64,000 nucleotides of DNA from Topomyia yanbarensis. Its lineage: Eukaryota > Arthropoda > Insecta > Diptera > Culicidae. Numbering within the stretch: position 1 is the stretch's first letter; each line of letters opens with the position of its first letter. Made by a program: the position numbers and the translations under genes. Below, piece by piece: positions 4,594 through 60,621 of the stretch. The notes under the pieces are model-generated. The model was not told the origin of the DNA. It saw nothing but the letters and a program-made list of their open reading frames with translations, and made no database searches. Location: NCBI RefSeq assembly GCF_030247195.1, contig NC_080672.1, positions 347,322,413-347,386,412 on the forward strand. Direction: 5' to 3'.

Positions 4594-6235
4594 ACATCAT
4601 TATGGGACCATATTTCAAATTAATCATTGAACCAACAGTACTCACACCATTTCGGACACTGAAAAAAAATCCACGCGCTAATTCTATTTACTTCAAACCG
4701 CTTAAAATCCATATGAAGAAGAAATTCTACTGTTATCTCGCGCACACATACCTTCTATGAGTCAACTGTATAAACTATGTATGCACACACATAAGTTATA
4801 TGTGCGAATTGTTATAGAATCGGGTTTTATGTGCCTTATAGTTATGAAATGTGAATGTAAGACTAATATCTCTTGTAAATACACACATTAGGTTTATGTG
4901 ACAGCAAATAGTGTGTATCTGCCTCCGCTAATTGCAAAAATCTAAGTGTAAAATCAATAGGCATAACGTTTACAATTTTTTTTAAGTGGATGCTTGCCGG
5001 AATAAACCCAAATAGAAATTTACGGCAACAAAGCGATATTTTCTACAATAGTTTACAATACTAAGTTTGTGCTACAATATAAAAACAATAAACTTTAGCA
5101 TTTCTACAGTAATTTTCAATGTAAAATAGACTTTTACCGTATAACATGGGGTGGTTATGTGTCTTAACATTAAAAAATCGATCTTTTTCCAAATATTTTT
5201 TTTCTCGGAAACAGTAACATTTAATAAGAAATTTACTGTATCATTTTTTCTTTGGCCAGTAAAACGAATGAAGTTTCTTCGTAAATCTACTGAGGGTACT
5301 CTACGTCGAACAATATTGATACAATGATAACCATAATATTATTCTATGATTAGTTGTAGGATAAATGATATTGTCTAGATTAGATTAGATTAGATTTTAT
5401 TTATTTGAAGTGGTCCCTTTAACTTATTGTCATTTGGGACAAATTATATTGTTAATTCATCTGTAATGGCCCAGAGCTCAATTTCGAAAGCACTTATAAT
5501 GCTTGCGTTCATGGGAAAAGTTCCAATAAACGTTATTTCGCCTAATTTTTTCAAAAAAATTGTATTGTTAAGCGGCGCTTACATGTTCAATATTTTTTGT
5601 CAATACAGTATTGACGATATTGTTACAATATTTCAATCTCATTTGAAATCCACATCGTCAATACAACTTTTTTCCTTCACACTTATAACACTTTTTTCAA
5701 TGCTCTCTAGTATTGACAAAAATATTAAACATGTAAGGGCCGCTTTACACTATTGGAGCAAATAATGGTTTTGGTTTGGAGAATTATTTGGTGTATTCGC
5801 GAAATCTAAACCAATTAGCGTATGAGGGCAAAAGACCTGATTTAGAAAAGTAGGATATGAACTGACCCGTGCAACCTTATTCACTTTTTTCCGCGTGTCT
5901 TTATATTTGTACATACCATCGTCTTTGGTCCTGTGGTGCAGTTTTAGTACAGCTATTCATCACTAGGTATCGCTGCAACTTAAATATTTTGGTGGTTCGT
6001 TTCACTTGAGCGAACGTATCTTGGAACAGTTGCAGCATTGGAACAAACATTTTCGGGGATTTTATCAACGTACTCAAAAAATAAACGTCAATCTGATAAA
6101 AATAAAATTTTGCGGCTTTGTTGAAACTTGGATTCTTTGCCAACTTCATTATTGTTGCTGAATTGCGAATCAACGCTAGTTAATTTTAAAATAATTGTTC
6201 AATAAATAAACATCACTGTAAAAACCACTTCGAAA
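4594..6235. other. Intergenic DNA upstream of the NCOA5-like gene
   Basis: AT-rich and without a recognised gene. A short GATTA/AGATT tandem lies at about 5376-5397. The region just upstream of 6236 must hold the 5' UTR and promoter of the NCOA5-like gene, but no TATA box or initiator can be assigned with confidence. Confidence 0.4.
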
Positions 6236-7671
6236 ATGATGTCTGCCTCGGAACCAGTAGTTTCTCGTGTTTACATAGGCGGCTTGGGCGAACAGGCGTC
6301 CCGACAGGACATGGAGGAACTTTTCAAAGACTATGAACCGTATTCTGATCTGAATTTGCTGCGAGGGTACGGCTTTGTACAATTTCCTTCCGAAGAAGCG
6401 GCCCACTTGGCGATCGAAGGACTTAACGGTAAGATGTTGAAAGGGCGAAAGTTAACGGTGAAAATAGCACACGACAACCGTGCAAAAAAAGGTCTTTTGC
6501 CGAGAGGAGCCGGTGGACCGGAAGGACAGGCTGGCATGGTTCGGGATAGATCTCCCATCGACGGGAACCGCTTTGCAGATGGATATCCGCCCCGAGGTGG
6601 GTATCGTGGAATGTATCCTGGAATGGAAATGGGTGGCTTTTCGGATCCAATGATGCGCATGCATCAGCAGGGCCCTCCAGCACAGCCGGAAAGCAATGAT
6701 TGTGAGATTATTGTAGTTTCTAGAGATTTGACGTGAGTAATGAGTAATTGTATATAGAATAATAAATTGATTTGCTTTCTTTTTTTACGTTTAGAACCTA
6801 TGCAGAAAATATAGAATCCAGACTAAAGCGAAATGGGCTGACAGTGGATCTTCTGTTCCCAAACGATGACGTTCCGATTGGTAAAGTTTTGTCCAATATC
6901 GCTTCCCGTGGCAGTTACTATGCCATACTAATCACACCGGAAAATGAGGAACGAAACAGCATAACGGTGAATGTTTTGTACGGAGTTCCAGCAGAGCATC
7001 GGAACATGCCAACTGATGATGCAATCATGTTCATTTGCAAGGATTTCGAGGATAAGCTTCGTTCGGAACAGGAGAAAACATCCAAATACCGGGCCGGCTC
7101 GATGATGGGTTCAAGCACCAATAACAGTCATTTAATGTACAATGCACCGCCGCTGCAAGATAAACATCCTGATCCGATACAAAATATGCTCAATCTTCTT
7201 GCTGCCAATCGGCAACTTACCGTTCTACAGTATGATCGAGTCATAAAATACCTGAACGAACGCAAGGAAATGCAGATCAAATATGAGCTCGGCGAAGACT
7301 TTGATTCCGCCGGTGCCAGCAGCTTGATGGATACTAAAACTAAAGAGGAAAACGAAAAGTTACTGCAGCGCAAGATTATGGACATTCTCAACAAACCGTC
7401 GATCATTGCCCCGAAGCCTAAATTAGTGGAACCGGAAATTGAAAAGCGAAACGTTTCCAGTGGATTCTCGTCTTTCGGTGGTATCACAGTGGCAATGGCG
7501 GCTGCATCTGCGACGTCCAGTGCGAGTTCGGCAGCCGCGCCCGCCCCAAGATCGAATAGCAGTATTCCGATTGATGGCGGTGCTGCGCCGAAACTGCTTC
7601 ACGATCCTAAGGTACAGAAAGCACTAGATTCACTGTTGCTTTCCGGATTGGGTGGTGGGCTCAAGTTTTAA
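6236..7671 (+). CDS. NCOA5: NCOA5-like RNA-binding nuclear receptor coactivator
   Basis: Two exons, 6236-6732 and 6795-7671, encode 457 aa. An RRM lies at residues 10-78 with RNP2 (VYIGGL, 12-17) and RNP1 (GYGFVQF, 44-50). A Gly/Arg-rich linker (90-125) follows. At about 155-260 there is a domain like the anticodon-binding fold of class II tRNA synthetases, with the EHRNMP motif typical of NCOA5. The LLNLL-type helix region (ANRQLTVLQYDRVIKYLNER) and a Ser/Ala-rich tail complete the match. In animals NCOA5 is a nuclear protein that modulates nuclear-receptor transcription without the AF-2 route and binds RNA. Two ATGs stand in tandem at 6236 and 6239; either may start. The intron joins phase 2 to phase 1 (AC|A). 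AATAAA overlaps the region just after the stop. The family assignment is strong; the role in insects is inferred. Confidence 0.88.
6733..6794 (+). other. Intron of the NCOA5-like gene (62 nt)
   Basis: Donor GTGAGT at 6733, a T-rich tract, and acceptor TTTAG ending at 6794. Removing it keeps the frame across the junction, between the RRM/linker part and the rest of the anticodon-binding-like domain. Confidence 0.9.
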
Positions 7672-10379: not shown

Positions 10380-10469
10380 CGCAGATAAGATTAGCTTTTG
10401 TAGGCATTACTCCCACGGTCGGCTGTGTGGAGCTCAAATTGCTTTTGATTGAAAAACATAAGACACTCT
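10380..10469. repeat. Left part of an older repeat split by the LTR retrotransposon
   Basis: Together with 17566-17880 this matches about 26310-26830 in the same order (ACTCCCACGG, GGAGTTCAAATT-like, CAGAGTTTAAA, GAATCCTAGACC, CCTATGGAAG, ACGCAACGCAACGC). The LTR element is inserted between the two halves and has duplicated ACTCT. Confidence 0.7.
10465..10469. repeat. Target site duplication (left), LTR retrotransposon
   Basis: ACTCT, repeated exactly at 17566-17570. Five base pairs is usual for Ty3/Gypsy integrases. Confidence 0.9.
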
Positions 10470-11043
10470 TGTAGTGAATACGACGACTATGAATAATAAA
10501 AAGTAACAGGAACTTTGACAGTTATGCTTTTGAACGTCATTATGGAGATGTGAGTCGACATAAGATGTATTATCTTTACAACGCTCAGACACCCATGGAG
10601 CAAACGCATTGAAACGGTACACTGTTATCAGAGTTTGATCACATCGAGTTGAAAATAAAATATTGTGAAATAATCTAGGTACGATATATTAAAATATATA
10701 TATTTAAAAAAAAAGACTTCGTGAAAAGATAATATGCATAACAAGTAATATCAATCCTTAGAAATAAAATAATTGATATTAACTTTTATAGCGTAATTAG
10801 TATTGATAATGTTGATTAATTGATTGTCTAGAAAAATTCGAAGTGTGTAATCAAGGAATTGAAACGCAAACTAATAAAAAAAAGAAGAAAACAAAACGCA
10901 ATTTGAAGCAGGATTACAGACCGGACGTTGGAGGTGTTTTAGCGGATGCGAAAAAAAAGAATGCGTTCAGGCCTCATTCTGTGATCTATTACCGTAGAAG
11001 ATAGTCGCATTTTCTGTGGACAAAAAAAATTCTGAATACGACA
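10470..11043 (+). repeat. 5' LTR
   Basis: 574 bp, starts TGTAGTGAATAC and ends AATACGACA (TG...CA). The 10-mer TGAATACGAC occurs at both ends of the LTR (10475-10484 and 11033-11042). AATAAA occurs at 10763. A run of TATA-like sequence lies at about 10685-10705. It should hold the promoter and poly(A) signal, but the transcription start cannot be fixed. Confidence 0.93.
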
Positions 11044-11060
11044 TGGCGCAGTTAGTAGGT
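11044..11060 (+). other. Primer-binding site
   Basis: TGGCGCAGTTAGTAGG follows the LTR without a gap, as expected where the CCA end of a tRNA primes minus-strand synthesis. I could not name the cognate tRNA. A GTAAGT splice donor begins at its 3' edge (11059). Confidence 0.65.
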
Positions 11061-11609
11061 AAGTTTAAATGAATGATACGTTGGTGAAACTTGTTGAATA
11101 TAGGAAATTGGTTAAAAAAAAATAGTACTGAATTAATAGAGTACTGAACCACAAGAAAGAAATATTCATGAAGAACTGGATGTAGGGCGAGTAGGACTCT
11201 GCACCATGTGTACTAATATAAATTGAGGTGAAGCTATAAAAATATATGAATATTCGAGACAAAGCTGGATGTAGAGCGAGTAGGACTCTTCACCATATAT
11301 CTAAACGGAGTTACCACGTGTACTCTACATGTTAAAGGATGTCGAGCGAGTAGGTCTCTACATCATGTAGCCAATATGAGGCGAAACATATATATATATA
11401 TATTTACAAATATAGAGCGAGTAGGACTCTAAATAATGAAAAGCAGAAGCGCACAAAATTTATTTAATCCAGTAAGCGAGTGTGGCGCTGCAAAAAAAAA
11501 AACGATCATAACTAAATGTTTTTTTATATTTAAATCTGTTTAAAAAAAAAAATACAAGAATCAAAGAAATACTATTTATTTGTCTTTTTTGCCACTATCG
11601 TTTTCGCAG
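11059..11609 (+). other. Candidate leader intron (551 nt)
   Basis: Donor AGTAG|GTAAGT at 11059 lies at the end of the primer-binding site. The acceptor, a pyrimidine-rich tract ending TTTTCGCAG at 11609, is 5 nt before the gag ATG. Splicing would give a short-leader mRNA without the GCGAGTAGG repeats. The consensus sites are seen; use is inferred. Confidence 0.5.
11176..11482 (+). repeat. Leader repeats around GCGAGTAGGACTCT
   Basis: Four imperfect copies of a unit reading roughly GGATGTAGAGCGAGTAGG then ACTCT-CACCATGT. The GCGAG cores are at 11187, 11276, 11346 and 11417, spaced 89, 70 and 71 nt. A weaker fifth core is at 11476. They lie between the primer-binding site and gag, the place where packaging or dimerisation signals usually sit. 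Confidence 0.8.
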
Positions 11610-11614
11610 ATAAC

Positions 11615-12886
11615 ATGGGAAAGTCTAAAAGGAAGAGTAAAACTAAAAATTTAGAAAGAGAGTTGGCAGAAGAAAGAAAAAAATCTGCTCAACTAGCTGA
11701 TGAACTGGAGCGGAGCCTTAAGAGAAATAAAGAACTTGAAGCTGGCGATAGTGGTAGGAATAACCGGAACAATTCCGATGACGCTGCTATTGAGTTCAAT
11801 GCGGATAATGGCTTTAGCAGCACTCAGCGCATGACGACAGGTCACACCATAGAAGAATCCAGATTTTTGTCGTCAATGAACCAGCTTTCGGTGGCATCAA
11901 TCAATGTCCCGGAGTGTAAACCGATGGATGATGACGATATACATCGGCAACAATTCGAGATGTGGAAAGATTTACTGACGGATTCTCTAAAACTGGCTGG
12001 GATAGACGATGAAGAAACCAAATACACCGTTTTTAAAGTGAAAGCCGGTCCTCGCCTTTTGGAAATATTTAAAAACACAAAATCGCAAGCTGACGCTCCG
12101 GACTCGACAACAGAGCCGTTTTCCAATGCAATACACCGCCTAAGATCTTATTTCGGATCAGGTTCCGATCTTATGCTGCTAAGGCGTAGGCTAGCACTGA
12201 TGACACAAAAGGCAACAGAGTCCGATTTATCATATATATCTCGAGTTGGTTCTATTGCCCGGCTCTGTGAATTCGATCATGAGAAGGAATTCGAGGAGAT
12301 CGTGGCGACGGTAGCTGAGCACGCTAGAAGTCGGGACGTGCGAACAACTGCTTTAAGAATGCTCAGTCGGAAAGGCTGTTTCACAGATCTCGTCGATAAG
12401 GTCCGCGAGATTGAAGCGATCAGACTGAATGAAGAGTTTGTGGCGCAAAAACACGGCAAAATGGAACAGACACTTATTGCTCCTGTTCAAGCGTATTCAA
12501 ATTGGGACAGGAACCGTCAGTTCAGATCTTTGGATGGATATGACTCACGGAAAACTCGTGGCAATCCAACTTATCGTGGAGGTTGGCGTGTATCAGAAGG
12601 CAGACAGTTCACCCAAAATAGAGGTTCACGTATTCAGTATTCGCGCGGTGAGAGATGTTGGCGTTGCAATAGCGCTTTCCATCTTGCTACGGACTGTAGC
12701 GTCAAAGATAAAATCTGTAACAATTGCGGAAAACTTGGACACATTCAGCGTGCGTGTCGTTCGCGCGAGCCACTGAAGCGAAAGGCGGCGGAGCCTTTGG
12801 ATATCTCTCCGAAGAAGATTGCTATTGTGGAAAAGACAGAAGAAATAACAAATGCAGATGAAAAAGTAAGTGAAATTAATAACTGA
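11615..12886 (+). CDS. gag: Gag, nucleocapsid-type with two CCHC zinc knuckles
   Basis: 423 aa when unspliced. The N-terminus is Lys/Arg-rich, then heptad-like and probably coiled coil (residues 10-45). The capsid-like middle (about 105-285) has the usual helical Gag composition. Two CX2CX4HX4C knuckles lie near residues 347-380 (CWRCNSAFHLATDC and CNNCGKLGHIQRAC), preceded by an Arg/Gly-rich stretch. The start is the first ATG after the candidate leader acceptor. At codon 418 (12866) the frame runs into GTAAGT; without splicing, six more codons are added before TGA. Gag would form the retrotransposon particle and bind the RNA. Confidence 0.9.
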   Translation: MGKSKRKSKTKNLERELAEERKKSAQLADELERSLKRNKELEAGDSGRNNRNNSDDAAIEFNADNGFSSTQRMTTGHTIEESRFLSSMNQLSVASINVPECKPMDDDDIHRQQFEMWKDLLTDSLKLAGIDDEETKYTVFKVKAGPRLLEIFKNTKSQADAPDSTTEPFSNAIHRLRSYFGSGSDLMLLRRRLALMTQKATESDLSYISRVGSIARLCEFDHEKEFEEIVATVAEHARSRDVRTTALRMLSRKGCFTDLVDKVREIEAIRLNEEFVAQKHGKMEQTLIAPVQAYSNWDRNRQFRSLDGYDSRKTRGNPTYRGGWRVSEGRQFTQNRGSRIQYSRGERCWRCNSAFHLATDCSVKDKICNNCGKLGHIQRACRSREPLKRKAAEPLDISPKKIAIVEKTEEITNADEKVSEINN

Positions 12887-13071
12887 TTTTTTTACAATAT
12901 GGCTACTCTTATGCTGTAATTTGAACTTGGTATTCGAAAGAGAAAAGCCATTGAAACGAGTGAATTTTGGATTACAACAAAAAAAAAGCATCAATAAATT
13001 AAGAAAAGAAAAAAATTGAACTGTGATTCGTTTTATTTTTTTACTAGCGCTAAAATTATATATTTAAACAG
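12866..13071 (+). other. Candidate gag-pol intron 1 (206 nt, phase 0)
   Basis: Donor AAAAA|GTAAGT at 12866. The acceptor is ATTTAAACAG, ending at 13071, with a TACTAGC branch-like word about 30 nt upstream. It contains the gag stop codon. Joining 12865 to 13072 continues the Gag frame without a stop. Confidence 0.72.
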
Positions 13072-13272
13072 GTAGCTAATGTTGGCTCAGACCAACTGAG
13101 ATCCAACAGTTCGGAACTTCATTTGAACTCGAACGTGTCCTTGATTGAATCTAAAGAGTGGAACTCTGTTGGAAATTTTTCAAGCAAAGTTGGTAAACTT
13201 AACGCTACGGAACCATTTCGACAGGCTAGGATAAATGATTTGGTCAGATCTGAAAGCGACAATATCGACGAA
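13072..13272 (+). CDS. Linker exon of the spliced Gag-Pol
   Basis: Exactly 201 nt, 67 codons, open in the phase set by both flanking introns. Ser/Asn-rich and without a recognised domain, as expected for a spacer between nucleocapsid and protease. If intron 2 is retained the frame stops nine codons later, giving a C-terminally extended Gag instead. It would be expressed only after removal of intron 1. Confidence 0.7.
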
Positions 13273-13341
13273 GTAAGTATAAATTTACTAAGCATATAAA
13301 GTGCTTTTTTATTTCAAATCATCACCTGTCTCTTTAAATAG
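13273..13341 (+). other. Candidate gag-pol intron 2 (69 nt, phase 0)
   Basis: Donor GACGAA|GTAAGT at 13273; acceptor CTCTTTAAATAG ending at 13341 after a T-rich tract. Stops occur inside in the reading frame, so its removal is required to reach pol. 69 nt is a common short insect intron size. Confidence 0.72.
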
Positions 13342-16300
13342 GCACGAAATTCATATGCACTACAGAATAATACAGTTTTGAGGTCTGATGACGACGATGG
13401 TATTATCTCTGTGATGGTGGCAGGAATGCCGTGTTCTTTTTTAATTGACTCCGGAGCTCAAGTGAATACGTTCACTGAAAACATGTTCAGCGCGTTGACT
13501 TCTGACCCCATTTACAAGAATGGTATTTTTGATCTGAGATCTGAAACGGATCGATCTCTTAAAGCTTATGCCTCAGCCGGCGAAATTAAAGTGATAGCTA
13601 CGTTTTATGCATACCTATATATCTCTAATAATAGACCTACCTCGCTGGAGAAATTTTATGTCGTCAATGAGTTACGAGCTCTTCTAAGCAGATCAACAGC
13701 TTCCAGGTACAGCGTCCTGATGCTAGGTCTGAAAGTACCTGTGCAATCTAAAAACACTAGATTCGATCAGCTACTATACGCAGGAGAGATTGCGTCTATC
13801 GTAACGAAAGATATTTTCCCAAAATTCAACGTTCCTCCAGTCAAAATTCATTACGATAAGTCTAAACCTCCATGTCGGAATATATTTTTTAATATTCCGC
13901 TTGCTGTAAAGCCTTTGGTTGAGAAGCGACTTCTGGAGCTTGTTTCATCGGATATTATAGAACCAGTAGTAGATGGTATGGATACATCGTTCTGCTCGTC
14001 CATGTTAGTCGTGCCGAAGGGTAAAGATGATATACGATTGGTCATCGATTTGAGAGGACCAAATCGCTATATTTATCGCACACCCTTTTCAATGCCAACA
14101 TTAGAAAAGATTTTGGCTGAATTGAATGGAGCAACATGGTTCTCTATCATTGACCTCTCCCATGCGTTTTTCCATATAGAACTAGACGAAGAATCTAGAC
14201 TGCTCACGAATTTCTGTACTGAATTTGGCATGTTTCGTTGTGTGAGATTGCCCTTCGGCTTAACGAATGCCCCGGACCTGTTTCAAGAAATACTACAGCG
14301 GAAAGTACTAGGGGGTTGTAAAGGGTGCAAAAATTATTTGGACGATATATTGATATACGGTAAAACTAAAGATGAACATGACGAGAACTTGGAGGAAGTC
14401 CGACGCTGTCTAGCTAACCACAATGTAAGACTTAACGAAAGCAAGTGTGTTTTTGGAAGCCAATCGGTGCCATTCCTTGGATTTACGTTGACACCCAAAG
14501 GATGGCTTATTGAAGAAGAGAAGATTGCGGCCATCCAGAATTTTCGAACTCCAATTAACTGTTCAGAAGTCAAAAGTTTCTTGGGTCTAGTAACTTTCGT
14601 CGATAAATTTATTGTACACCGCGCGACGAAGACTGAGCATCTTCGTTCACTGGCCAGTTCAGATACATTTTATTGGACGAATGCTGAAGAGACAGAGTTT
14701 CAATTTATGAAAAAAGAAGCGCTAAATACCATAAAACGGCTGGGATATTATAATGCAGCGGACAGGACCGAGTTGTTTGTCGATGCCTCTCCAATAGGAC
14801 TCGGCGCCGTGCTGGTTCAGTATCACGAAAACGGTAATCCCAGAATTATAGCATGTGCATCAAAGGTTCTCACCGCTTCGGAAAAACGATACCCACAGAC
14901 ACAGAGAGAAGCTCTAGCTGTTGTTTGGGGAGTAGAGAGGTTTAATTTCTATTTACTTGCCAAATCCTTCGTGATACGTACCGACGCTGTAGCCAATCAG
15001 TTCATTTTCAATAGCAACCACAGGATGGGAAAAAGAGCTGTAACCCGCGCCGAGAGTTGGGCTCTAAGACTGCAACCATACGACTTTTCAATACGATGCG
15101 TAACAGGTAATGAAAATGTAGCTGACGTGCTTTCTCGACTTATTCCTGAGACACAAGCATCAGAACCATTTGATGAATGCGAAGAAAAGCACTTTTTATA
15201 TTCACTGGACTCCGGATGTATGGAAATAACATGGGGTGAGGTGGAATTGGAATCTGAAGATGATAGCGAGCTACAACTCGTTCAAAAATCTCTGCAATTG
15301 AACAAATGGCCTGATGAACTTCGAGCATTCGAATCGCAGAAGAAGTTTCTACATAGTTTTGGACCCCTACTTTTCAAAGACGACCGAGTTGTATTGCCGA
15401 AATCTCTACGTCAGAAAGCATTACGCTCAGCCCACGGAGGTCACGTGGGGGAAGTCGCAATGAAGCGTATAATGCGTCAATACTTTTGGTGGCCAAAGAT
15501 GTCTACGGAAGTAACGCGATATGTCAAAGACTGTGAAACATGCATTCTCCTGTCTAAACGAAATCCTCCGATACCGATAACATCCAGAGAATTGCCTGAC
15601 GGACCATGGGAGATTCTGCAAGTGGATTTTTTAACAGTGCCCAACTTTGGTTCCGCAGAGTTTTTAATTATAATTGATACATACTCGCGTTATCTGGCTG
15701 TTGTAGAAATGAAAGCCATGGATGCAGAAAGCACGAACTTGGCATTGTGCGAAACGTTTAAACTGTGGGGATGCCCTATTATAATTCAGAGTGATAACGG
15801 GCCCCCATTCCAAAGCACTGCATTCACTTCGTTCTGGAAAGAGAAAGGAGTTGATGTAAGAAAATCCATACCTCTTAGCCCACAATCAAATGGTGCTGTG
15901 GAAAGGCAAAACCAGGGCTTAATAAAAGCTTTGGCAGCCTCCAGACTTGATGGTATAAACTGGCGCTATGCCCTTCAGAAATATGTTCATCGACACAACA
16001 CTCTTGTTCCACACTCAAGACTTGGCATTACACCTTTCGAGATGATGGTCGGCTGGCGCTATCGTGGCACATTCCCTAGCCTCTGGGGTAACGAACAGAA
16101 ACTTGACCGCACGGATCTTCGCGAACGGGATGCAGACATGAAGCTTTCTAGTAAGAAATACGCTGACTCTATGCGCGGCGCAAAAGAGTCGGATATCAGG
16201 GTTGGTGATACAGTTTTACTTTCCAGGCAGAGGCAACACAAAACCGATCCAACTTTCTCGTCGGATCGCTACAAAGTGGTAGCTAGAGATGGTGCAAAAG

Positions 16301-16386
16301 TAGTGGTTATTAGCCAAGCTGGGGTACAATACGCACGAAATGTCCGGGAAGTAAAAAAGAGCTCCCGCATGCAGCACTACAGATAG
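13342..16386 (+). CDS. pol: Pol: protease, reverse transcriptase, RNase H, integrase
   Basis: 1014 codons from the acceptor at 13342; no start codon is needed if it is translated as part of spliced Gag-Pol (about 1498 aa in total). Domains in order: aspartic protease (DSGA near 13447); reverse transcriptase (LPFGLTNAP, YLDD near 14335-14346); RNase H (VDASPIGLGAV); integrase with an HHCC zinc-binding head (HGGH... CETC), then the D,D35E core (VDFL, SDNG, NGAVERQ) and a C-terminal beta domain. All catalytic residues look intact. The products would copy and integrate the element in the nucleus after assembly in Gag particles. The frame stops at TAG 16384, yet a +1 frame continues the expected C-terminal region. 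Confidence 0.93.
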   Translation, partial: ARNSYALQNNTVLRSDDDDGIISVMVAGMPCSFLIDSGAQVNTFTENMFSALTSDPIYKNGIFDLRSETDRSLKAYASAGEIKVIATFYAYLYISNNRPTSLEKFYVVNELRALLSRSTASRYSVLMLGLKVPVQSKNTRFDQLLYAGEIASIVTKDIFPKFNVPPVKIHYDKSKPPCRNIFFNIPLAVKPLVEKRLLELVSSDIIEPVVDGMDTSFCSSMLVVPKGKDDIRLVIDLRGPNRYIYRTPFSMPTLEKILAELNGATWFSIIDLSHAFFHIELDEESRLLTNFCTEFGMFRCVRLPFGLTNAPDLFQEILQRKVLGGCKGCKNYLDDILIYGKTKDEHDENLEEVRRCLANHNVRLNESKCVFGSQSVPFLGFTLTPKGWLIEEEKIAAIQNFRTPINCSEVKSFLGLVTFVDKFIVHRATKTEHLRSLASSDTFYWTNAEETEFQFMKKEALNTIKRLGYYNAADRTELFVDASPIGLGAVLVQYHENGNPRIIACASKVLTASEKRYPQTQREALAVVWGVERFNFYLLAKSFVIRTDAVANQFIFNSNHRMGKRAVTRAESWALRLQPYDFSIRCVTGNENVADVLSRLIPETQASEPFDECEEKHFLYSLDSGCMEITWGEVELESEDDSELQLVQKSLQLNKWPDELRAFESQKKFLHSFGPLLFKDDRVVLPKSLRQKALRSAHGGHVGEVAMKRIMRQYFWWPKMSTEVTRYVKDCETCILLSKRNPPIPITSRELPDGPWEILQVDFLTVPNFGSAEFLIIIDTYSRYLAVVEMKAMDAESTNLALCETFKLWGCPIIIQSDNGPPFQSTAFTSFWKEKGVDVRKSIPLSPQSNGAVERQNQGLIKALAASRLDGINWRYALQKYVHRHNTLVPHSRLGITPFEMMVGWRYRGTFPSLWGNEQKLDRTDLRERDADMKLSSKKYADSMRGAKESDIRVGDTVLLSRQRQHKTDPTFSSDRYKVVARDGAKVVVISQAGVQYARNVREVKKSSRMQHYR

Positions 16387-16600
16387 TAACGAGCAACTTC
16401 CTCAATTAAACGACGGGAATTCGTCTGAAGACGGGGCAGTAACTGCCAGTACATCTCACGATACGAGCTATCAGCGAAAATCTCCGGAACCGTCAATTGA
16501 TTTTTTCCCTTCGCATCAGTCTCGTATGCTTCGACAAAGAGATAAGATTAACCGTCCTTCGAGATTTGATGACGAATATTTGTACCGCGTGTTCCACTAA
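16355..16600 (+). CDS. Pol C-terminal tail in the +1 frame
   Basis: The +1 frame is open from just after the A6 run at 16353-16358 to TAA at 16598. Near its end it encodes basic residues then a RPSRFDDEY-like motif, the type of ending seen in many Ty3/Gypsy Pol proteins. Either one base in the A run has changed, or ribosomes shift there. It has no own start codon upstream of the homologous part. Frame and motif are seen; the cause is inferred. Confidence 0.5.
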   Translation, partial: KRAPACSTTDSNEQLPQLNDGNSSEDGAVTASTSHDTSYQRKSPEPSIDFFPSHQSRMLRQRDKINRPSRFDDEYLYRVFH

Positions 16601-16976
16601 AAAAAAAAAAGATTTCTTTAAGAGAAAAAATGAATAAAATGTATGATTTGTTGATCGGAGTTGCCTTAGAAACTGATTAAAATCAATCTCTCCAAAAAAA
16701 AAAACAAAGAAAACAAAAAAAATCTTTTAGGCATTCTCATCCGAATTTACATCCTCCTCCTCTTTTCAAGCTGTGAAAATAATTCGCATCAGGAAGGGCA
16801 ATGCATATGCTAGAGTTCCAAATCACTTTCTTTCCGATATACGAAACATCCGCTAGAAGAGTATAATTTTCTTGCACAGGATTGATGTTTCACTTAAACA
16901 TATTCTAGTAGCTTGTGACGGGTTTTGAATCCTTTACCACCGAGAAAAGCAACTAACAAAATTACAACTTCAGAGT
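16601..16976 (+). other. 3' untranslated part of the LTR element
   Basis: A-rich, non-coding; no env-like frame. It leads into the polypurine tract. Confidence 0.6.
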
Positions 16977-16991
16977 AGAGAAGGGAAAGGA
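16977..16991 (+). other. Polypurine tract
   Basis: AGAGAAGGGAAAGGA directly abuts the 3' LTR. This is the usual RNase H-resistant primer for plus-strand DNA synthesis. Confidence 0.88.
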
Positions 16992-17565
16992 TGTAGTGAA
17001 TACGACGACTATGAATAATAAAAAGTAACAGGAACTTTGACAGTTATGCTTTTGAACGTCATTATGGAGATGTGAGTCGACATAAGATGTATTATCTTTA
17101 CAACGCTCAGACACCCATGGAGCAAACGCATTGAAACGGTACACTGTTATCAGAGTTTGATCACATCGAGTTGAAAATAAAATATTGTGAAATAATCTAG
17201 GTACGATATATTAAAATATATATATTTAAAAAAAAAGACTTCGTGAAAAGATAATATGCATAACAAGTAATATCAATCCTTAGAAATAAAATAATTGATA
17301 TTAACTTTTATAGCGTAATTAGTATTGATAATGTTGATTAATTGATTGTCTAGAAAAATTCGAAGTGTGTAATCAAGGAATTGAAACGCAAACTAATAAA
17401 AAAAAGAAGAAAACAAAACGCAATTTGAAGCAGGATTACAGACCGGACGTTGGAGGTGTTTTAGCGGATGCGAAAAAAAAGAATGCGTTCAGGCCTCATT
17501 CTGTGATCTATTACCGTAGAAGATAGTCGCATTTTCTGTGGACAAAAAAAATTCTGAATACGACA
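16992..17565 (+). repeat. 3' LTR
   Basis: 574 bp; I see no difference from the 5' LTR on reading both through. Confidence 0.93.
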
Positions 17566-17880
17566 ACTCTCTGTAGCTAACTACTCAGAGTTTAAAAAGG
17601 ACCAAAAACTAAACAAGATCTTTTCTTTTCCGAGTGATCATGTACTCGAAGACTAATTAAACAACTACCTAATAAACTATGCTTTGCAGGTCGCATCGCT
17701 AACTTGGAGCGAATCCTAGACCTTATTCCCTTCCAAACTACCAACTCCGCAAACACCTATGGAAGAGTCTGATGAATCGTCGTTCTTCCGTTAAGTAGGT
17801 GGAACATCAACACTTCCCGTCTACCTTATCCTTTATCCTTCCCCGTGAACGACGTCACTACACAACGCAACGCATAACAT
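17566..17880. repeat. Right part of the older repeat split by the LTR element
   Basis: Begins with the ACTCT duplication and continues the repeat whose other copy is at 26310-26830. It ends in CACAACGCAACGCA. Confidence 0.7.
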
Positions 17881-55869: not shown

Positions 55870-56942
55870 ATGGCCGAGGGCGAAATACCATCTGATGTAA
55901 TCATGGAAGTCCCTGATCCCCCTAATACTCGCATTGCTCCCCGTATAAAGCAGTACTCAGAAGGTTCCTCTGGGCCATGGGTGGTATATTTTCGGACCGG
56001 AGAGAAACCGGTTAATATATTAAAACTTTCTCGAGATCTGACTGCTAATTACCCGGCCGTAACTCAGATAACACGTGTTCGGGCAAACAAGATACGTGTT
56101 CTAGTGAGTGATCTCGGCCAGGCAAACGCGATTGCTTGCTGTGAGCGCTTTACGCGGTACCAGTTCTCCTGTTCGTACCGCGGGTCATGAACTGCAGCAA
56201 TTGCAAGCAGTTGGGCCACACAGCCACATATTGTGGAAATAAGAAACGATGCGGCAAATGCGAAGGAGAGCATGAGGATGACTCTTGCGACAAAGAAACT
56301 GAAAAGTGTATTTGCTGCGGGGGCCCTTCACATGCTCTTAAATCATGTCCTGCGTACAAGCAGCGCGGGGATAAAATTAAGTGCTCCCTTAAGGAACGCT
56401 CAAGGCGTTCTTATGCAGAAATGCTAAAGAATGTTTCGCCATCTGTCCTGTCCGAAAATCCCTATGCTGGTTTGGCTAACGTTGAGCAAGAATCTGACGA
56501 CCCACGAGAGGGAACATCTTTGGTTAACCCAGGGGAATCCAGGAAGAGGAGAAATCCAGCCTCCCCTACATTGCCTCGTAAGGGTGCCAAGGTGTCGTCC
56601 ACTCAGAGTGCGCCATCTACAACCAATAAATCCAACGGAAGTGATGCACAAAAGCCGAAGCAATTTGCTCCAGGACTTGGAAATATTAATTCTAACAAGG
56701 AGTACCCACCACTTCCAGGGACATCCAAAACCCCAAGTGTCCCCTTTTTTCAAACAGATACTCAGTCCAGTAGCGGACTAATGAAATTTTCTGACATAGT
56801 GGACTTAATTTTCACAGCTTTCAATGTTACTGATCCTCTTAAAAGCCTTCTGATACGTTTTCTCCCTATAGTGCAAACATTTTTGAAGCAGTTGACTACT
56901 AAATGGCCCCTCCTTGCAGCGATCGTATCCTTCGATGGCTAA
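55870..56942 (+). pseudogene. LINE ORF1, three CCHC knuckles, internal deletion
   Basis: The frame beginning at 55870 codes for the N-terminal RNA-binding part and runs off at 56190. The downstream frame, in another phase, supplies three CX2CX4HX4C knuckles (CSNCKQLGHTATYC, CGKCEGEHEDDSC, CICCGGPSHALKSC), a basic KERSRRSYAEML helix and a Ser/Pro tail. Compared with the fragment at 34930-35215, roughly the segment before the first knuckle is missing. The break lies at about 56155-56165, near the short direct match GGTACC/CGTACCG. The protein would normally coat LINE RNA. Confidence 0.75.
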
Positions 56943-59900
56943 GTCATCGAACGAGGTCACCGATTCGATCACTGTTCTACAGTGGAACAGCAGAAGTATC
57001 CTCCCGAAAATCGATTCCTTTAATTTTTTACTAAATAGTTTAAAATGTGATGCTTTCGCATTATGTGAAACTTGGTTAACTTCCGATATAAATCTCAACT
57101 TCCACGACTTTAATATAATTCGTCTGGATCGAGGAAACCCCTATGGAGGAGTACTTTTGGGGATCAAAAAGTGCTATTCTTTCAACCGAATTAACCTCCC
57201 TTCGACACCAGGCATTGAAATTGTCGCTTGTCAAGTTTTAATCAAAGGTAAAGACCTTTGCATTGCTTCCATCTACATTCCTCCTAGAGCCTCGATAGGG
57301 CACCGAACGCTTTGTAATATCACGGAATCCTTACCGGCACCGCGGCTAGTTCTGGGAGACTTTAACTCGCACGGTACGGTATGGGGCTGTCTTCATGATG
57401 ATAATAGATCAACATTAATCCAAGATCTTTGCGATAACTTCAACATGACCATCTTAAACACGGGAGAAATGACGCGGATTCCTACACCACCAGCACGCGC
57501 AAGCGCGTTGGATTTGTCGCTTTGCTCGACATCGCTACAGTTAGATTGCATGTGGAAGGTGATCCCTGATCCCCACGGTAGCGATCATTTGCCTATCGTG
57601 ATTTCAATTGCTAACGGTTCAAGACCATCGAAAACAATCAATGCCTCGTATGACCTCACACGGAACATTGATTGGAAGAGTTACGCGACCGCGATATCCG
57701 TTAAAATCGAATCCACTCAAGAACTTCCTCCGGAGGAAGAGTACAGGTTTTTGGCTGGCTTGATTCTCGACAGTGCGAATCAAGCTCAGACTAAACCAGT
57801 ACCCAGCGCGAATACCCATGGACGGTCTCCCACCCTGTGGTGGGATAAAGAGTGCTCAGAGCTGTACGCGGAAAAGTCCACTGCATATAAGGCCTTCCGG
57901 GAAGACGGGTTACCCGCTAGCTATCAACAGTACGCGTCGTTAGAAAGGCGATAGAAGAGTCTAATGAAAGCCAAAAAACGCAGTTATTGGCGCCGGTTCG
58001 TCGACGGGTTAACGAGAGAAACAGCGATGAGCACTCTTTGGGGTACGGCTCGACGTATGCGTAACCGTAATAGTACCAACGAGAACGTGGAATATTCAAA
58101 CCGTTGGATATTCGCTTTCGCCAAGAAGATCTGTCCGGACTCTGTCCCGGTACAGAAAACGTGCCGCGCCGCGTCTCCTCACGATACCGCGAACGAAACA
58201 CCGTTTTCGATGGTGGAGTTCTCACTTGCTCTCTTATCGTGCAACAATAACGCCCCAGGGTTGGACAGAATCAAATTCAACTTGCTGAAGAATCTGCCTG
58301 ACACAGCAAAAAGGCGCTTGTTGAATTTATTTAACAAGTTTCTTGAGGGTAACATTGTCCCTTATGAATGGAGGCAAGTGAAGGTCATCGCCATCCAAAA
58401 ACCAGGAAAACCAGCCTCCGACCACAACTCGTATCGGCCGATTGCAATGCTGTCCTGTATTCGGAAGTTGTTCGAGAAAATGATCTTGTTTCGCCTCGAC
58501 AATTGGGTTGAAGCAAATGGCTTACTGTCAGATACACAATTTGGCTTACGCAAAGGCAAAGGGACGAACGATTGCCTTGCGTTGCTTTCTACAGAAATCC
58601 AAATGGCCTATGCTAACAAAGAGCAGATGGCATCAGTCTTCTTGGATATTAAGGGGGCTTTTGACTCAGTTTCTATCAACATTCTGTCAGAGAAGCTGCA
58701 CCAGCATGGTCTTTCGCCAATTTTAAATAACTTTTTGCAAAACCTGTTGTCTGAAAAGCACATGCACTTTTCGCATGGCGATTTAACAACATCGCGATTT
58801 AGCTACATGGGTCTTCCCCAGGGCTCATGTCTAAGTCCTCTGCTCTACAATTTCTACGTGAATGACATTGACGATTGTCTTGCCAATTCATGCACGCTAA
58901 GGCAACTTGCAGACGACGGGGTGGTCTCTGTTACAGGGCCCAAAGCTGCCGACTTGCAAGGACCATTACAAAATATCTTGGACAATTTGTCTGCTTGGGC
59001 TCTTCAGTTGGGTATTGAGTTCTCCACGGAGAAAACTGAGTTGGTTGTTTTTTCTAGGAAGCGTGAGCCGGCGCAACTCCAGCTTTTATTAATGGGTGCA
59101 ACGATCAACCAGGTTTTCACATTTAAATATCTCGGGGTCTGGTTCGACTCTAAAGGTACCTGGGGATGTCACATTAGGTATCTGAAACAGAAATGCCAAC
59201 AAAGGATCAATTTTCTCCGAACAATAACTGGAACATGGTGGGGTGCTCACCCAGGAGACCTGATCAGGTTGTACCAAACAACGATATTGTCGGTGATGGA
59301 GTACGGGTGTTTCTGTTTCCGCTCCGCTGCGAACATACACTTCATCAAACTGGAGAGAATCCAGTATCGTTGCTTGCGCATTGCCTTGGGTTGCATGCAC
59401 TCGATCCATACGATGAGTCTCGAAGTGCTGGCGGGCGTTCTTCCGCTAAAAAATCGATTTTGGGAACTCTCATATCGATTGCTCATCCGATGCGACATTC
59501 TGAACCCGTTGGTAATTCAAAATTTCGAGAGGCTCGTCGAGCTTAATTCTCAAACCCGTTTTATGTCCTTGTACTTCGACTACATGGCACAGAGCATCAA
59601 TCCTTCTTCGTACAATCCCAACCGTGTCCGTTTCCTAGATAGTTCTGATTCTACTGTATTCTTCGACACATCCATGAAGGAAGAGATTCGTGGAATCCCG
59701 GACCATATACGCCCGCAGGTGATCCCCAATATATTTTATAATAAATTCCGAGAAGTCGACTGCGACAAAATGTTTTACACTGACGGATCAAATCTCGATG
59801 GGTCCACTGGCTTCGGTATCTTCAACAATACTATCACCGCTTCATTCAAGCTCAATGTTCCCGCTTCAGTTTACGCCGCAGAGTTAGCTGCAATTCAGTA

Positions 59901-60621
59901 CACCCTTGGGATCATCGACACTCTGCCCACAGATCACTACTTCATCGTTTCGGACAGCCTCAGCTCTATCGAGGCTCTTCGTGCGGTGAAGCCTAAAAAG
60001 CAACTCCTGTATTTTCTGGGGATGATACAGGAGTCCTTGTGTACGTTATCTGAAAAATCTTATCAGATTACCTTTGTTTGGGTCCCCTCTCATTGTTCTA
60101 TCCCGGGCAATGAAAAGGCCGACTCATTAGCAAAGGCGGGCGCATTAAATGGTGACATATACGAAAGACCAATCTGCTTCAACGAATTTTTTAGTATTTG
60201 TCGTCAGAGGACGCTCAACAGTTGGCAAACCTCGCGGAGCAACGGGGAACTTGGACGATGGCTACATTCGATTATCCCAAGGGTATCAACGAAGCCTTGG
60301 TTCGGGGGGATGGATGTGGGTCGGGATTTTATTCGCGTAATTTCCCGACTTATGTCCAATCACTACACCATGGATGCGCATTTGCGGCGTATTGGGCTTG
60401 CGGAGAGTAGTCTGTGCGCTTGTGACGAGGGCTATTACGACATCGAGCACGTTGTCTGGGTATGCGCCGGGTATTTGGACGCCAGGTCTCAGTTAAAGGA
60501 TTCCCTTCGGGCCCGAGGTAGACCACCCAATGTCCCAGTCCGAGATATGCTGGCAAATCGTGATTTCCCCTATATGTCCCTTATTTATACTTTCATAAAA
60601 ACGATAAATATCCCAATTTAG
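56935..60621 (+). pseudogene. LINE ORF2: endonuclease, reverse transcriptase, RNase H; one amber stop
   Basis: ATG at 56935 overlaps the ORF1 stop (ATGGCTAA), suggesting termination-reinitiation. 1228 codons, in one phase throughout, with a single in-frame TAG at 57952. Endonuclease (about 1-240): LQWNSRS, CETWL, LGDFNSHG, GSDHLP. Reverse transcriptase: PGLDRIKFNLLK, SYRPIAML, MGLPQGSCLSPLLYNFYVND, LADD at 58906-58917. RNase H: FYTDGS (near 59775), AAELAAIQ, SDSLSS, WVPSHCSIPGNEKAD. A Cys/His cluster (CACDEGYYDIEHVVWVC) lies near the end. It would nick DNA and prime LINE cDNA synthesis. Apart from the stop it looks intact, implying a young copy. Confidence 0.88.

Follow-up and report, generated by a model that had tools for sequence, protein, structure and literature searches.

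We consider it likely that a recently inserted Ty3/gypsy element of the mosquito Topomyia yanbarensis carries spliceosomal introns between its gag and pol frames, so that unspliced RNA would serve both as Gag message and as genome and spliced RNA as the message for Gag-Pol. The element lies at positions 10470–17565 of the window, the whole stretch of 64,000 nucleotides analysed here (C3:347322413-347386412) from the 1.17-Gb genome of this culicine. Positions are those of the window, and all features of the element except the target site duplication are given on the + strand. The 5′ LTR of 574 nt (10470–11043, TG...CA) is 100% identical to the 3′ LTR (16992–17565), and the same five bases, ACTCT, flank the element on either side as a target site duplication (10465–10469 and 17566–17570). 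The primer binding site (11044–11059) is of the tRNA-Ser type, and 14 of its 16 bases can pair with the 3′ end of tRNA-Ser(AGA); it was compared with the tRNA-Ser(AGA) genes of the same genome after CCA, the sequence found at the 3′ end of tRNAs, had been appended to them. The gag frame, which includes a zinc knuckle, runs from its first ATG for 423 codons plus stop (11615–12886), and the pol frame for 1014 codons plus stop (13342–16386), followed by a polypurine tract (16977–16991) before the 3′ LTR. Pol contains a protease motif (DSGA, with a Pfam aspartyl protease match below the cut-off only) and Pfam reverse transcriptase, RNase H and integrase domains in the gypsy order. The LTRs, short target site duplication, primer binding site, polypurine tract and pol domain order are thus those of a Ty3/gypsy element, and the identity of the LTRs, together with the duplication, the purine tract and the primer binding site, indicates that its insertion is recent. 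The tail of Pol is unlike that of the sibling copy L002 and is 71 residues shorter.

The border between the two frames has the architecture proposed in the first-pass annotation, which had described two phase-0 introns linking Gag and Pol. From position 12866 the gag frame reads GTA AGT GAA ATT AAT AAC TGA, placing the stop (12884–12886) six codons past the start of a GTAAGT donor. Intron 1 (12866–13071, AAA|GTAAGT ... TTTAAACAG|GT) is 206 nt long and varies by indels among sibling copies. The next 201 nt (13072–13272) are open in the same phase up to a second GTAAGT and form exon 2, a symmetric phase-0 spacer of 67 codons that is free of stops in its own frame; the other two frames contain 5 and 8. 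Intron 2 (13273–13341, GAA|GTAAGT ... TTTAAATAG|GC) is 69 nt long, and pol is open in frame from 13342. All these coordinates were borne out, and the two introns are supported in addition by the siblings and by the conserved border of the relatives described below. Frameshifting, readthrough and reinitiation were considered as links between gag and pol and rejected; the 455 nt from the gag stop to the pol frame hold stops in all three frames, so that simple frameshifting or readthrough would be unable to join them.

Translation of the unspliced RNA would yield Gag, its stop being reached six codons into intron 1, and the same RNA would serve as genome. With both introns removed, Gag would be continuous in frame with the 67-residue spacer and Pol, which would let partial splicing take the place of ribosomal frameshifting. 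It is most likely, then, that RNA splicing and not ribosome slippage decides the amount of enzyme, and we infer that partial splicing sets the ratio of Gag to Gag-Pol and that the window copy is itself spliced. The use of polysomes and the export route are presumed likewise. Since both borders of exon 2 are in phase 0, its skipping, which the first-pass annotation overlooked, would likewise preserve the frame.

Three close siblings (L002, L003 and L018) are 99.1–99.4% identical to the window copy over 1401 nt, and all gaps in this alignment fall in the introns (1–2 nt in intron 1; intron 2 is 70 nt long in two of the siblings and 71 nt in the third). Exon 2 is free of gaps in all three, with 2, 3 and 2 substitutions, respectively, and each sibling retains the splice sites. 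The more distant subfamilies L046 and L048 also retain all four splice sites; their exon 2 differs by indels of +18, +3 and −33 nt, every one a multiple of three, while in L046 intron 1 has 278 nt and intron 2 has 60 nt. The proposal had been exposed to sibling copies with stops in exon 2 or lost splice sites, and neither appears in the three close siblings or in L046 and L048. A search with two junction patterns, allowing up to 3 mismatches, turned up no processed copy belonging to the family of the window element, and no locus carrying the window's pol was found in IMG/VR.

Searches of the genome with three pols of the group gave at least 47, at least 121 and at least 49 matches, in overlapping sets, and the gag-pol border was tabulated for one representative of each of 20 lineages. 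All 20 have a donor in the gag frame 3–16 codons upstream of the gag stop (19 GTRAGY and one GTAGGT), as against 2 GTRAGY at the 7610 codons upstream of these donors in the same gags, a placement beyond chance. Two introns are present in 7 lineages and one in 13. In each of the 7, exon 2 is free of stops and its length divisible by three; mononucleotide shuffles keep it open in 13 to 74 of 2000 cases per lineage. Intron lengths vary modulo 3 among the lineages and the phase remains 0. Acceptors not pinned down by a processed copy or a gene model were each taken as an AG from which pol is open in phase 0; since these were chosen for an open frame, acceptor phase is partly selected. The protein matches show the same placement: the zinc motif is present in 107 of the 120 homologs of the window Gag listed, 97 of these have tails of 28–80 residues, and Val-Ser or Val-Gly occurs in the last 19 residues of 94 of the 97 tails compared with 184 of 970 control pieces. 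Homologs named by NCBI among the matches listed come from Aedes, Ochlerotatus, Armigeres, Topomyia, Toxorhynchites, Wyeomyia, Malaya, Uranotaenia and Culex. One intron is the commoner state, and probably the ancestral one, in a large group of relatives, a point overlooked by the first-pass annotation.

The 20-lineage table covers neither near-copies of the listed lineages nor the following loci: L017 (decayed), L024, L028, L030 and L050 (no gag zinc motif found), L057 and L058 (donor retained, acceptor ambiguous), L059 (weak donor, GTACAG), L061 (gag not found), L063 (a near-copy of L062), L045 (gag missing), L048 (like L046), and L065 and L066 (later additions). At L061 (C1:96305300-96306900) the end of another reverse transcriptase–RNase H frame precedes pol, and two pol matches lie ~2.3 kb apart.

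A sister family with a single intron provides a natural spliced copy. L021 is a complete LTR element of 8110 bases with the target site duplication GTATA, and a comparison of its LTRs over 869 nt gives a single gap and not one substitution. It lacks exactly the segment GTAAGT...CACAG, which in L025, a copy with a separate duplication (CAAGG), measures 301 nt. In the aligned stretch outside the intron L021 is identical to L025 and L026, and otherwise it is nearly identical to the intron-bearing copies. Its gag and pol form a single frame of 1532 codons, and it alone among 30 scored candidates gives an unbroken gag-to-pol match. From the structure of the locus, so precise a loss of the intron in a full LTR element with its own duplication shows that spliced RNA of the sister family must have been packaged, reverse-transcribed and integrated by the LTR route; this covers a one-intron relative and not the two introns of the window. 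Comparison of the two copies with each other (L021 2554-3100, L025 2736-3289) gives many overlapping self-like matches, pointing to a tandem repeat array in the upstream part of this family's elements.

The introns might be real and yet have no part in controlling the ratio, being spliced in the ordinary way and retained since genome RNA stays unspliced, with the excess of Gag arising from translation or stability. The consensus donors and acceptors in all 20 lineages would suit such efficient splicing. Against this, the gag stop in all 20 follows within 3–16 codons of the donor, as if the retained form were meant for translation, and the unbroken match is found in just the one candidate; we regard this explanation as unlikely and prefer partial splicing as the control of the ratio.

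Gene models offer a further view of these introns. The L019 intron, intron 2 of L009 and the L031 intron were read from sequence before the matching NCBI models were found, and four models of the T. yanbarensis genome bridge introns of this kind. P0016 uses the L019 intron (176 nt) and P0017 intron 2 of the L009 lineage (61 nt), each to the base. The break in P0190 falls at the site of the L031 intron, and in a further lineage (L065, L066) P0027 spans an intron of 301 nt, GTAAGC...CAG. P0122 is an L009-lineage Gag with the unspliced tail. By eye, the Gag-Pol joins of P0046 (Armigeres) and P0181 (Aedes albopictus, isoform X2) fall at the L037 and L035 places. A search with the junction region of P0016 gave 23 proteins, of which 6 span the junction; all six are NCBI models, P0016 itself being one, and they may be purely computational. 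Also by eye, P0130 and, less surely, P0138 (both Armigeres) continue from gag across a stretch resembling exon 2 and on into an intron 2 that is retained. They resemble the third, extended Gag that the first-pass annotation expected from retention of intron 2 only; such a product is possible, although its tail shows no conservation and exon 2 evolves almost neutrally. As separate observations, P0027 (LOC131678572) carries Pfam PF23025 and its first ~115 residues match none of the element loci, as if host exons had been fused to a Gag-Pol element, and in the contig-derived P0004 and P0010 a stretch like intron 2 is, by eye, open in frame, so that spliced and retained forms could both reach Pol.

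P0017 begins at a Met within exon 2 and joins exon 2 to pol, as would be expected if a spliced Pol message were translated apart from Gag, with its start in exon 2 or pol or with another upstream donor. Foamy viruses (Spumaretrovirinae) do make Pol in this way, from a spliced RNA and unfused to Gag (excerpts of PMC7828637). Many database Pols likewise start at a Met just upstream of the protease, though that is how such proteins are called. Whereas the foamy Pol is a separate protein, the mosquito elements preserve the phase of the gag frame across every boundary through to pol, which would be needless for an unfused Pol and speaks for fusion; the intron-free L021 is moreover one open gag-pol frame. 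A separately translated Pol thus appears very improbable, and we favour the fused Gag-Pol.

Exon 2 evolves quite differently from its neighbour. In the same three pairs its dN/dS is 0.88–0.89, as against 0.07–0.13 at the start of pol; its residues appear nearly unconstrained, and it reads as a spacer. Such near-neutrality would also be expected if there were no splicing at all, the region being a decayed or untranslated gap with pol reached by reinitiation or an internal start. We find this scarcely tenable, given the exact loss of the intron in L021, the maintenance of donors and phase across lineages, and indels that keep the frame in exon 2 and are free in the introns.

Its origin can be approached from a tree of 90 protease–reverse transcriptase rows, which holds relatives found in this analysis (55 of the 90 rows are unlabelled, and three of the one-intron lineages, L039, L060 and L062, were too short and left out). 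All 18 rows labelled as two-intron fall within one clade of 32 rows with support 95/99, and the one-intron L014 and L019 sit inside the same clade. The part of Pol after the last acceptor is 26–39 residues long in the 7 two-intron lineages and 28–41 residues in the 11 one-intron lineages other than L014 and L019, whose linkers have 83 and 69 residues. A late insertion of intron 2 into a long linker is disfavoured, as those 11 lineages have linkers of 28–41 residues only. The likeness of the two ranges suggests that the second acceptor is the old one and exon 2 new within the old intron, and exon 2 therefore probably arose inside an older single intron. L014 and L019 are likely to be losses of intron 2, though the tree does not settle it. 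Their position in the two-intron clade counts against our main reading, as do the shortened pol tail of the window copy and the weak constraint on exon 2.

A wider reading, to which we give slightly less than even credence, is that a large clade of culicine Ty3/gypsy elements has come to use regulated intron retention at the gag-pol border in place of frameshifting, with the donor concealed in conserved Val-Ser codons of Gag, and that in one branch the intron came to bear a symmetric cassette exon selected only for openness. If true, four frame-compatible products would be possible: Gag, extended Gag, Gag-spacer-Pol and Gag-Pol. Such a clade would have to export its intron-bearing genome RNA and prevent the copying of spliced RNA, and the intron-free copy shows that this copying occurs. 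Since a single genome holds members with one intron, with two and with none, mosquito cells would allow direct tests of what retention, export and packaging each contribute. There is also an issue of annotation, as NCBI lists the Gag and Pol pieces of such elements as uncharacterized host genes.

The nearest analogue is the plant Ogre, in which the intron lies within the pol region and not at the gag-pol border. Like the window element it belongs to Ty3/gypsy and has an intron between its frames, and the Ogre intron is spliced in RNA (excerpts of PMC3735527 and PMC12786077); it differs by its plant hosts, and the comparison is one of descriptions. One feature of the Ogre type, a spliceosomal intron within the coding region, is found here on sequence evidence together with the natural intron-free copy of the sister family. 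In copia of Drosophila, BARE1 and EVADE, splicing also separates a Gag-only RNA from a Gag-Pol RNA, according to the same excerpts, but there the Gag RNA is the spliced form, whereas in the mosquito elements it would be the unspliced one; the superfamily differs as well. Cer1 of C. elegans has a spliced accessory mRNA and an unspliced genome RNA that must be exported (excerpts of PMC10309623), its spliced product being CERV and not Gag-Pol, unlike the one proposed for the mosquito elements. Retroelements are under a basic constraint to make Gag in plenty and Pol in small amounts, and frameshifting, the usual answer, is called a common strategy in the excerpted PMC3735527.

Among the literature titles and abstract openings searched, none names an intron at the border of gag and pol in a Ty3/gypsy element from an animal; subscription papers were mostly outside this search, and priority is not proven by it. 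Excerpts of two papers on mosquito LTR elements (PMC3286476, PMC3026039) mention no intron inside the elements, and those of a mosquito proteomics paper (PMC5248466) no intron at the gag-pol border. The Mag lineage of mosquito Ty3/gypsy elements uses a tRNA-Ser or tRNA-Leu primer (excerpts of PMC3286476), and the window element resembles it in its mosquito host and its tRNA-Ser-type primer binding site, the two features on which the likeness is based.

Two further features lie elsewhere in the window. A non-LTR retrotransposon at 56145–60621 has three long neighbouring frames (an unnamed first frame, one with an endonuclease, and one with reverse transcriptase and RNase H), and two neighbouring open frames at 6206–7671, the first with an RRM domain, represent a host gene or a retrocopy.
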